From a virus: 23,098 bases of DNA. The notes under the pieces are model-generated. The model was not told the DNA's origin. It saw nothing but the letters and a program-made list of their open reading frames with translations, and ran no database searches. Positions 17 to 8,483 of the stretch are shown piece after piece; position 1 is the first letter of the stretch, and every line of letters begins with the position of its first letter. The stretch covers positions 1 to 23,098 of IMG/VR virus record IMGVR_UViG_3300035204_001071, one strand, 5' to 3'. Both the position numbers and the translations under genes were made by a program.

Positions 17-358
17 TTATCTCCATTTATTAACTAATTTCTGGAATTTATTAATATCATTTACCTCAACTGCTTCAACCTCTCCAATTTCAGGATTAAA
101 TACTTCAACAGTTTCATTAACAAGAGGTGTAGTATTAAGATGTGATTTAATTTGACCATTTATAACTTTAACCTTGGCACCATTCATATATGTTATACCA
201 TCAACAATAGTTATCTTAGCATCAGGGTTAATAGCAAGTATCTCATCACGCTTGGCTTTATTATCTAACCTTCTTTGACGAGACTTAATTGTTTTTGCAA
301 CAGCTAGAGCTTTATGTTTTGCTTTACGCTCCATCTTTCTTTCTTTGGATGATCTCAT
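17..358 (-). CDS. Small basic hypothetical phage protein, 113 aa
   Basis: I do not recognise this protein. The first about 45 residues are very rich in lysine and arginine (M-R-S-S-K-E-R-K-M-E-R-K) and predicted helical, which would suit nucleic-acid binding. The second half is acidic and beta/loop-like, with a hydrophobic patch around ITIVDGITYMNGAKVKVING. There is no signal peptide or membrane segment. The start is the ATG at 358, with a modest AAAGGG eight bases upstream. It lies downstream of the ORF-free, possibly RNA-encoding interval on the same strand and is followed closely by another leftward start, so it is probably part of a leftward transcript of small accessory genes. A DNA- or RNA-binding role is inference only. 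Confidence 0.7.
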   Translation of the reverse strand: MRSSKERKMERKAKHKALAVAKTIKSRQRRLDNKAKRDEILAINPDAKITIVDGITYMNGAKVKVINGQIKSHLNTTPLVNETVEVFNPEIGEVEAVEVNDINKFQKLVNKWR

Positions 359-384: not shown

Positions 385-839
385 TTAAAATATTACCACT
401 ATCAACGTTTCTCAAGTGGTCAGAGTATTATCGTATAATAAGTGACTAGCTATACGCCTTCCGAAGAACGACTTTTGGAGCCTATCCTAGGTGATTTAAC
501 CTATAGTGTGCCTATGGTCGACACAAAATATTTGATCAGGTCTGACTCTCACCAGACAGTACTTGCCGTATTGAGTATACGTCTTCCACTGCACCCATGG
601 TAGCAATGAGACCGAAACTCCTATGCAAAAGTAGCTGATCAATTTTTAGAGAGAGCCGTCAATATCTCAATGCTCGCGCAGGCTTCTTTCAGCCATATAG
701 GTTGCATCTCATGATAACAGGTAAGCGACCCTGTGTCTGATGAATCATTTTAAAGAGCTTGACCCTTCCTTTACTCTCTCAATTAAGCTTATCAGGGTTT
801 AGTATCATAGTACCCTAAAATATTCCAGAAGCTCTTTAG
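385..839 (-). ncRNA. Candidate large structured phage RNA (about 440 nt)
   Basis: This interval of about 480 bases (359-839) holds no credible ORF. I count 155 G+C in 421-780 (43%) against about 33% in neighbouring genes, as expected for structured RNA in an AT-rich genome. Potential helices (plus coordinates) are: 829-837 with 752-760 (9 bp); 635-642 with 532-539 (8 bp), enclosing hairpins 567-571/577-581 and 540-544/553-557; 681-684/691-694; 794-798/812-816; 489-492/499-502; 432-437/451-456; and 395-400/415-420. Positions 774-780 can pair with 649-655, giving a pseudoknot with the 9-bp helix. A C(UUCG)G tetraloop at 459-468 exists only in the minus-strand RNA, which also gives purine-rich loops, so I prefer leftward transcription. 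Size and phage context recall the large ornate RNAs GOLLD and ROOL, but I cannot confirm family membership. Confidence 0.5.
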
Positions 840-1064
840 TTACTTCGATAAGCCATGTTTACATTCATTACAGATAATATCATAATCGCTATGAAACCAG
901 TAATCGTGACATTCCCTGCACTTTAAGCCCCATCCAAATAGATGGAATATATTTTCAAGGTACATACCTATAAAAATGCAAGTAATTATAAGATATACAG
1001 TCCATTCTAAAGGATTGAGTACAATAAATAATGTTAAATCTTGTATTTTTTGACCTAGGTACAT
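840..1064 (-). CDS. Small membrane protein with C-terminal zinc-ribbon-like Cys motif, 74 aa
   Basis: The protein has one hydrophobic segment (about residues 21-37, YLIITCIFIGMYL) followed by a Cys-rich tail with C49-x2-C52 and C65-x2-C68, the spacing of a small zinc ribbon. I chose the ATG at 1064 because it has a GGGGG about eight bases upstream and sits two bases after the stop of the preceding small gene. An in-frame ATG at 1109 would overlap that gene by 43 bases and has no ribosome binding site. The product probably sits in the inner membrane with the Cys tail on one face. Function is unknown; a role in membrane modification or host takeover would be a guess. The candidate structured RNA begins immediately downstream. 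Confidence 0.55.
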   Translation of the reverse strand: MYLGQKIQDLTLFIVLNPLEWTVYLIITCIFIGMYLENIFHLFGWGLKCRECHDYWFHSDYDIICNECKHGLSK

Positions 1065-1066
1065 AA

Positions 1067-1180
1067 TTATATCCCCCAGACAAGATATGCCCACAATGGA
1101 CTTAGCCATAGCAGCACTATCAGTATAAACATTGAGATTACTAAAATATCATCTTCATGTCTTTCTATGAATTTTCGCAT
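1067..1180 (-). CDS. Very small single-pass membrane protein, 37 aa
   Basis: A 37-codon frame starts at ATG 1180, with a strong AGGAG (plus 1189-1193) eight bases upstream, and ends with TAA at 1067. The product has a charged N-terminus (M-R-K-F-I-E-R-H-E-D-D) followed by one strongly hydrophobic stretch (about residues 12-27, ILVISMFILIVLLWL) and a second short aromatic stretch ending in G-I. This is the pattern of small phage membrane proteins. It is the first gene of a pair; the downstream zinc-ribbon membrane protein starts two bases after its stop, so the two are probably translated together. Function unknown; a pinholin-like or superinfection role is possible but unsupported. Confidence 0.6.
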   Translation of the reverse strand: MRKFIERHEDDILVISMFILIVLLWLSPLWAYLVWGI

Positions 1181-6119: not shown

Positions 6120-8478
6120 GCATTTATTTGCAAGGGCTAATGGACCCCAAAGAGTTCAATGGCAGAAGGTTAATCAGAAAGGATTTGATTTTTCAAATGA
6201 TAATCAGCTGACAGAAACAGAAAAAAGGTCTCTTAAGGTACAGGGAATGCCTACCTTTACTATCAATCGCATAGCTCCTGTAGTGGAAATGCTCAATTAT
6301 TATGCAACTGCTAATCAGCCTAGATGGATGGCGGTAGGCGCAGAAGGTTCAGATGCAGATGTAGCTACTGTCTTTTCAGATATGGCTGACTATATATGGA
6401 ATCTTTCAGATGGATCATCGCTTTACGCTAATTGCATTAATGATGCTGTTACAAAAAGCATTGGCTATATGATGGTAAATATAGATAAGAATATGGATAA
6501 TGGAATGGGAGAGCTTGTATTAGAGCAACCAGAGCCTTTTGATTTATTTGTAGATCCTAAATCTCGTGATATGCTATTTCGAGATGCATCATTTATTATG
6601 ATAAGAAAAATTCTACCTAAATCTCATTTGCATAAATTATATCCAGATAAAAAAAGAGCTATAAATAAAGCTGGGGAATATACTGGGACTGAATTTGACT
6701 ATTCAGAAAGAGCTATAGATGGCGAGCAAAAAGACTTTGCATACCAAGATATAGTCGATGCAGTAACTACAGAGGGAGAACAGGATCCCTTAATGGAGTT
6801 CTTTGAGGTATGGGAGAAGGTAAAAGTTAAATACTGCAATGTCTTCTACAGAGTACCCCAGGATCCAGAAGCTATGAAGCAAGCTCAGGAAAAAGCTGCG
6901 CAACAGTTAGCTGATATGCAAGCTGAGATGATGGTAGAGCTTCAGGAAAAATCCAATCAAATGCAAAAAGAAGTTCAAGCTGGAGAAATGTTGGAAGAAA
7001 GATACCAGCTGGAAATGAAGAAGGCTCAAGAAGCTATTGAAGCAGAAATGCAGCAAAAACAGCAAGAAATGCAAAGCTCTTTGAAGCAGATGAGTAGCGT
7101 AATTGAAAATCAAATTATTACCAGTAAAGAGTATAAAACTTTAATGAAAAATAAGCAGTTTGCTTCTATGGTAACAGATCATATTACTTTCTTTTCTGAT
7201 AGAATTAAGCAGACTGTGTCAACAGGAGATCAGCTCCTTTCTGAAAATATCTTAGGAAATAATATAACTGAATATCCAATAGTTCCGTTTCATTTTAAAT
7301 GGACTGGTACTCCATACCCAATCTCGGCTGTATCACCTCTTATAGGTAAGCAGCAGGAGATAAATAAATCACACCAACTTCTTGTGCATAACGCTTCCCT
7401 GGGAAGCAGCCTAAGGTGGCTATATGAGGAGGGTTCTATAAACACTAGCTACTGGGAGGATTACTCTTCTGCTCCTGGTGCATTGCTTCCTAAGAAGCCT
7501 GGATTTGAAAATCCAACACCAATACAGCCCATGCCTCTTTCCAATGCTTTCTTTGGTATTGTGCAGGAAAGTAAGCAAGACATGGAATACCTGGCAGGGA
7601 TATATGGAGCCATGCAGGGAGATACATCTACCCAACATGAAACCTATCGTGGTATGCTAGCTATGGATGAATATGGCACCAGGAGAGTGAAGCAGTGGAT
7701 GAATCACTGTATTGAGCCTGCATTAAGACAGCTTGGAGAAATTGTAAAACAGTACTCTCAGGCATTGTACACTGCACATAAAGTATTTAGAATCGTACAA
7801 CCATCTGCATTACAGGAAGGTAAAGAGACACAAATTAATGTTCCTATCTATAATGATTTAGGCGAAGCAATTGGAAAATGGAGAGATTATTCCTCTTGTA
7901 AGATTGATACTAGAATAGTATCAGGCTCCACTATGCCAATAAATAGATGGGCATATTTAGAAGAATTAAAACAACTCCTTCAACTTAATGTGGTTGATGA
8001 TATAGCGGTGCTTGCAGAAACGGATATTAGAAATAAAGATAAAATTGCTCAAAGGAAAAGTTTATATGCAAAGCAGCAAGGAGAGATACAAAACTTATCT
8101 GAAGAGGTCAAAGACCTTAATGGTACAATCGAAACTCTTGAAAGACAGCTGGTGACAGCTGGTATTAAAGGCAAAGTTATGCAAGCTGAAATGGAAGTTG
8201 AGAAGGCAAAGCATGATAAAATAACAACCGTCAAGAAATCTACGATAGAAACTCAGGCACAACAAAAATTACTCAGAGACTCAGAAAAGAAGGATGCTCT
8301 GCGTATAAATCAAGCACAACAAGAAACAGCAGCAACTAGGAACAAGCTTATGGATATGGAAGCTAAAGATGTAGCCAGGAATGCCCAAGCCCAAGCCACT
8401 GAAGCAGTAAGAAACCTTCAGTCTGAGCTAAAAGAGGCAGGAAGGCAGGCTAAAAATAAATCTAAAGAAAATGTATAA
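6079..8478 (+). CDS. P22-type portal protein, 799 aa
   Basis: The portal forms the ring at the unique capsid vertex through which DNA is packaged and ejected. The N-terminal part, with FTINRIAPVVEMLNYY and NQPRWMAV and then the KSIGYMMVNID region, has the pattern of P22-like portals, as does the central WTGTPYPISAVSPLIGKQQE and QESKQDMEYLAGIYGAMQG. A Gln/Glu/Lys/Met-rich coiled coil of about 85 residues (about 260-345) interrupts the body. A second long coiled coil (about 663-795) forms the C-terminus, like the barrel helices of P22 portal. It is longer than P22 portal (about 725 aa). Start ATG 6079 has AGAGG upstream. It follows terminase and precedes the scaffold, the usual order. Confidence 0.88.
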   Translation: MARLAKKTKAEQIRHLFARANGPQRVQWQKVNQKGFDFSNDNQLTETEKRSLKVQGMPTFTINRIAPVVEMLNYYATANQPRWMAVGAEGSDADVATVFSDMADYIWNLSDGSSLYANCINDAVTKSIGYMMVNIDKNMDNGMGELVLEQPEPFDLFVDPKSRDMLFRDASFIMIRKILPKSHLHKLYPDKKRAINKAGEYTGTEFDYSERAIDGEQKDFAYQDIVDAVTTEGEQDPLMEFFEVWEKVKVKYCNVFYRVPQDPEAMKQAQEKAAQQLADMQAEMMVELQEKSNQMQKEVQAGEMLEERYQLEMKKAQEAIEAEMQQKQQEMQSSLKQMSSVIENQIITSKEYKTLMKNKQFASMVTDHITFFSDRIKQTVSTGDQLLSENILGNNITEYPIVPFHFKWTGTPYPISAVSPLIGKQQEINKSHQLLVHNASLGSSLRWLYEEGSINTSYWEDYSSAPGALLPKKPGFENPTPIQPMPLSNAFFGIVQESKQDMEYLAGIYGAMQGDTSTQHETYRGMLAMDEYGTRRVKQWMNHCIEPALRQLGEIVKQYSQALYTAHKVFRIVQPSALQEGKETQINVPIYNDLGEAIGKWRDYSSCKIDTRIVSGSTMPINRWAYLEELKQLLQLNVVDDIAVLAETDIRNKDKIAQRKSLYAKQQGEIQNLSEEVKDLNGTIETLERQLVTAGIKGKVMQAEMEVEKAKHDKITTVKKSTIETQAQQKLLRDSEKKDALRINQAQQETAATRNKLMDMEAKDVARNAQAQATEAVRNLQSELKEAGRQAKNKSKENV

Positions 8479-8483
8479 AAGAC

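Follow-up and report, generated by a model that had tools for sequence, protein, structure and literature searches.

The interval 385-839 of the window, the whole 23,098-nucleotide stretch of viral DNA analysed here, raises the question of what occupies a noncoding gap in a phage genome: a structured RNA, and if so a single large one, as a sequence-only reading had proposed by likeness to GOLLD and ROOL, or something else. The source is an uncultured phage, among whose proteins are a P22-like portal, an SU10-like capsid protein and a terminase large subunit assigned by PHROG. The TerL proteins of isolated phages reach only about 25% identity to it, and no DNA similar to the 385-839 locus was found among phage isolates. 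According to the list of open reading frames, the genes at 17-358, 840-1109 and 1422-1736 are read leftward and the terminase and structural genes rightward; 385-839 is the gap separating the first two leftward genes. The downstream gene (17-358, minus strand) encodes a lysine/arginine-rich product of 113 aa, with homologues 3′ of the RNA modules described below in the related loci L094, L099 and L100. The upstream gene (840-1109, minus strand) encodes 89 aa, and neither product matched Pfam or PHROG. Promoter-like sites around the modules are not above chance (11 against 11.6 expected), and no terminator-like site lies inside 385-839. A terminator-like hairpin, GACTCCCTTACGGGAGTC, is found on both strands at 2180-2197, in the AT-rich repetitive gap that precedes the rightward terminase operon.

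Taken by itself, the interval gives weak evidence of structure. The absence of a credible ORF was borne out, the only frames being chance ones of 48-53 aa. The proposed GC shift stands against the nearest flanks (0.43 over 421-780, compared to 0.27-0.34) but is smaller against the window as a whole, where the mean is 0.378 ± 0.033 and 5.8% of 360-nt windows reach 0.43. Likewise, the C(UUCG)G hexamer is indeed confined to the minus strand (461-466), but it arises in 6% of shuffled sequences and falls in a non-conserved insert that is missing from the relative L115. Folded alone, the 455 nt are marginally stable (z = -1.17), with 12 of 100 shuffles folding as well; the corresponding values for the single modules defined below are -1.74 (AB), -1.83 (C) and -0.31 (H). 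This single-sequence evidence is weak; the RNA is established by comparison with relatives.

Among related IMG/VR contigs, a blastn search against 80 loci encoding related terminases yielded short near-identical islands, whose spacing and order change among these loci. Each pair of islands corresponds to the 5′ and 3′ strands of one helix-closed module enclosing a hypervariable insert. Pattern scans over 2.9 million viral contigs added many further members. Read leftward, the window contains hairpin G, module AB, module C and module H, then the 113-aa gene, with A/U-rich linkers between modules. Judged by sequence comparison, the minus strand of 385-839 does carry noncoding RNA, with AB, C and perhaps more modules, each structured independently, in tandem; G and H are more tentative. 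It is highly probable that the modules are separate, new structured RNAs.

Module AB lies at 643-786 on the minus strand (core 649-780) and is defined by its match to model R2 and by covariation. P1 (780-773/656-649, 8 bp) corresponds to the helix 774-780/649-655 singled out previously, which is real and covaries. It is followed by J1/2 (772-764, AAAGGAAGG), the 5-bp P2 (763-759/662-658), an AUA bulge (665-663) and P3 (757-755/668-666), between whose strands a hypervariable insert of 23-189 nt is held. The 5′ strand reads GAGAGAGU-AANNGGAAGG-GUCAA-G-C and the 3′ strand G-AUA-UUGAC-G-RCUCUCUC. The window, itself one of the 12 training sequences, matches R2 with 84.6 bits (E = 1.1e-20). Over 12 distinct sequences the 15 pairs are 100% paired; four of them are compensated, through UA/CG, AU/GC and GC/AU/UA exchanges, giving 10 compensated cells, a level reached by none of 500 shuffles and far above slid registers. 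All 12 sequences have standard pairs throughout P1 and P2 and at the first two positions of P3, and covariation is silent on P2 because P2 never varies. Every non-Watson-Crick cell among the 15 pairs is a G-U on the leftward strand; therefore it is the leftward RNA that appears to be selected.

Module C (532-641, minus strand) consists of a closing stem (641-635/539-533, UGAUCAG/CUGAUCA), a variable arm and an invariant hairpin formed by GUCUG (557-553) and CAGAC (544-540). The window scores 64.7 bits against model R3, of whose training set it is a member. Among 11 sequences, 96.3% of the cells are paired and three pairs of the closing stem and arm are compensated, again far above slid registers and shuffles. 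Compensatory changes in related phages support both AB and C. In L020, L102 and L108, sequence inspection of the C arm reveals a GAAA loop together with a stretch, CCUAAR..UAUGG, that resembles the 11-nt tetraloop receptor. In L102 (3839-3984, plus strand) one C module directly follows another, and their inserts differ. Module H (390-524, minus strand) comprises a near-invariant 5′ part, the non-conserved insert with the UUCG loop and a 3′ hairpin (420-415/400-395). It is common to the window, the L099 group and L115, which amount to three sequence types only; the 5′ part is invariant across them, the insert is absent from L115, and two pairs of the 3′ hairpin are compensated among these three types. 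Hairpin G (793-819, minus strand; GGG-UACUAUGAUACUAAA-CCC) stands just 5′ of AB. In L086, the only other example, an identical loop on a different but paired stem precedes AB.

Further elements are found in relatives. Module D, absent from the window, is conserved 5′ of C in L100, L104, L108, L082 and L132. An apparent pseudoknot involves its loop strand, as CUACAA/UUGUAG or, in L102, L108 and L132, CUGUAA/UUACAG. A third element, J (UUUGAAUUGGGRUC .. CAACGGUGUUGAAG), occurs in L027, L029, L041, L061/L100, L104, L108 and L132, and several J elements have an outer stem of the GAGAG type of AB. In L082, about 1.4 kb of unbroken noncoding sequence (6860-8480, plus strand) contains D, C, a long unassigned stretch, E and AB; AAGAATTGGGCTGCTTATRGTCCA stands both in the long stretch and in the 5′ part of L085's GOLLD region. 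This region gave no Rfam match and is possibly another giant RNA.

None of the 4227 Rfam models matched the window at the gathering score, and none matched positions 1-1400 at E ≤ 10. Among the relatives, K-form loci included, GOLLD and tRNA were the only convincing matches; known riboswitch and ribozyme models matched neither window nor relatives. A GTDB scan returned two chance matches only, both without the 3′ strand. AB and C therefore appear to be two RNA families undescribed within Rfam release 15, the reference for newness here, a comparison outside which falls the ambiguous marine motif Ocean-VI (PMC2864571), which has no Rfam accession. A cobalamin-riboswitch likeness of D/C strings, a kink-turn and a CsrA sponge were considered and dropped, Rfam support or matching geometry being missing.

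When the AB strands were searched in the opposite order, three relatives were found, and a 29-base pattern for this form, K, retrieved 44 contigs. In K it is P3 that closes the element, which reads G-AUA-UUGAC-AGGCGAG..CUAACGAGG-GUCAA-G-C. Over 25 distinct sequences, 94.3% of the cells are paired and 67 are compensated, compared to 23.5 on shuffling and far above slid registers. AB and K have in common the AUA bulge, P2, the flanking G and the P3 register, and the P2-P1 loop differs in detail between them. The hallmarks shared by the 12 AB and 25 K sequences, namely the GUCAA/UUGAC helix, the AUA bulge, the flanking G and a covarying P3, are all present in the window. K can sit 5 nt past a stop codon and about 20 nt ahead of the next start; a test for a positional bias of K toward the downstream start codon gave no statistically significant result. 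The genes near K include a spore photoproduct lyase-like radical SAM protein in L181 (2178-3038, minus strand; PF20903, E = 2.9e-23). Just 3′ of K in L184 (3633-7376, plus strand), a small protein, a 561-aa protein, a weak JAB-like protein and a ThiF/E1-like protein (PF00899, E = 3.4e-22) stand in a row, possibly a phage ubiquitin-like conjugation operon.

The position of the element is conserved. Wherever both could be placed, AB or K and terL lie on opposite strands, the element about 3-7 kb upstream (G001 and G016 being treated as circular), in records whose TerL identity ranges from 84% down to 30%, and the genes downstream differ widely. Of 17 long records, 13 contain a 10-base core word once, G002 contains it twice and three lack it; the reversed control pattern has zero occurrences. 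One of the three, G010 (which contains L025), has an AB with one base changed in the core word; two of the 17 records had no element by these searches. G002 is the sole record with two K elements (L180 5447-5506 and 6192-6275, plus strand), each about 30 nt ahead of a different gene, the second with a base change in P2. No two of AB, K and J co-occur in one locus among those examined (54 K, 41 AB and 9 J, figures that include duplicate contigs and fragments and are not phage counts). They appear to replace one another, as versions of a single element that is usually present once and whose locus is conserved.

GOLLD itself is found at this locus in relatives. RF02032 is matched at 170-172 bits in L085, L087/L004, L098 and L120, from phages that are syntenic with the window (TerL 84% identical): homologues of ORF104 (37%) and of the 255-aa gene that precedes TerL (63%) are arranged there as in the window. 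AB P1 begins 13-14 nt past the 3′ end of GOLLD in L085, L087, L098 and L120, the order in L120 being tRNA, GOLLD, AB. In L095, AB follows tRNA-Met by 8 nt; tRNA-Met is present at the locus in L084, L095, L100, L115 and L120, and no tRNA was found in the window. GOLLD env-38 is reported from a marine metagenome, downstream of a Met-tRNA (PMC12286853). As its marine origin and Met-tRNA setting are alike, env-38 may come from the phage group of the window.

The reading that we favour, with a probability of about 45%, is that a leftward transcript carries G, AB, C and H as discrete RNA modules, with AB, K and J acting as an RNA-level junction element. The modules would fold independently within the transcript of an operon that diverges from the terminase genes. 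AB, K or J would fold where an upstream RNA, whether GOLLD, tRNA-Met, other modules or a gene, meets the downstream message, and the folded junction would be a processing or 5′-end-stabilising signal, through which the structured RNAs are parted from the mRNA of a rapidly changing accessory operon. C and H would be additional members of the array, structured RNAs comparable to the tRNAs of a phage tRNA array. The reading is supported because the modules separate and reorder between phages, because the covariation of AB, C and K far exceeds the controls, and because AB closely follows GOLLD or tRNA-Met. It is also supported because AB often ends 20-40 nt before an RBS and start codon (12/20 cases) and K can be wedged between stop and start, and because the locus is conserved and its AB, K or J is usually single-copy and exclusive of the others. 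The most likely function of AB/K would be that of an RNA-level junction/processing or leader element of the leftward operon. The junction/processing mechanism itself is put forward tentatively: a general processing signal would not be expected to occur once per genome, further modules rather than a gene directly follow AB in the window and several relatives, and the bias of K toward a downstream start is not significant.

The alternatives differ first in what 385-839 would be. A DNA-level element, such as a replication origin or a packaging or recombination site whose hairpins are merely RNA-like, would account for the fixed place near the terminase genes and for inverted-repeat ends around a variable interior. 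It is scarcely credible, since the helices are compensated with G-U wobble confined to one strand, the internal loops are unequal and the orientation relative to genes is fixed. The noncoding, leftward, structured and phage-borne character of the region and its GOLLD setting, all part of the sequence-only reading, hold. The single pseudoknotted GOLLD- or ROOL-like unit in which that reading had combined them is very improbable, even with GOLLD at the syntenic locus and P1 of AB real: the modules occur apart and in other orders, neither the GOLLD nor the ROOL model matches even at E ≤ 10, and the fold energy is marginal. Assembly into cages is likewise unsupported for these sequences. The pseudoknot is unsupported because its partner helix 829-837/752-760 would break the conserved P2 and P3 of AB, which 752-760 overlaps at 759-763/658-662 and 755-757/666-668.

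Other alternatives accept the modules and differ from the junction reading in what AB/K would do. Conserved loop bases on both strands, nearby RBS and start codons in many cases and the usual single copy would also suit a cis-regulatory leader of the operon opposite the terminase genes, either a riboswitch-like aptamer or an operator bound by protein, whose conserved internal loops would sense a host or phage signal. This is rather unlikely, as the downstream genes are so varied, other modules sometimes intervene and Rfam riboswitch models are unmatched; moreover, natural permutation is unusual among riboswitches. Small trans-acting RNAs, cut from the operon transcript like tRNAs and acting on host proteins or RNAs in infection, are unlikely as an account of AB/K, C and H. 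They would fit a usually single-copy element kept at one locus in very diverged phages while its neighbours change, with tRNA-Met and GOLLD in the same array, but promoter and terminator signals around the modules are not above chance and some K elements are squeezed between two genes. Circularly permuted forms of a compact conserved core with hypervariable arms are characteristic of small ribozymes, hammerhead and twister among them, and AB/K could be a new self-cleaving class, its two-strand catalytic core closable at either end, between structured RNAs and messages. An invariant 5-bp helix would be unusual there, the P1-P2 loop differs between AB and K, and Rfam ribozyme models are unmatched, making this improbable. 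A broader conjecture is a long shot: AB and K would be two naturally permuted versions of an undescribed RNA class whose core cleaves itself or binds a ligand, an RNA that a broad marine phage clade keeps, usually in single copy, opposite the terminase genes and that separates structured RNAs such as GOLLD from the following messages.

Uncultured marine phages repeatedly carry structured RNAs of at least two families that Rfam does not list. The AB/K core, its locus and its usual copy number are kept despite TerL identities as low as 30% and a permuted strand order, and this suggests that the RNA core has a real function. The attachment of AB to GOLLD offers a handle on the open question of the role and making of GOLLD: if AB is a processing boundary, the true 3′ end of GOLLD and its co-transcribed partners become testable.

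Compared to known systems, AB/K resembles the hammerhead and twister ribozymes in its compact two-strand conserved core, hypervariable arms and permuted forms, a likeness that is a lead only, as AB/K differs from them in its invariant 5-bp helix and matches no Rfam ribozyme family, cleavage being hypothetical. manA and wcaG (RF01745, RF01761), like the RNAs described here, are structured and come from marine sequences and phages, where they occupy 5′ UTR-like positions (PMC2864571); their models match neither the window nor the K-form loci. ROOL, like the window modules, is phage-borne and structured, often near tRNAs (PMC12286853); the window has no Rfam match to it, and a single large fold or multimer is unsupported there. 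For GOLLD, the model of its conserved 3′ region (416 positions) is unmatched at E ≤ 10 in 1-1400, where small separate modules with other helices are found instead. Yet GOLLD shares with AB the locus, the strand and the phage group, tRNA-Met, though absent from the window, lies near the loci of several relatives as reported for env-38 (PMC12286853), and in L085, L087/L004, L098 and L120 AB comes directly after GOLLD.
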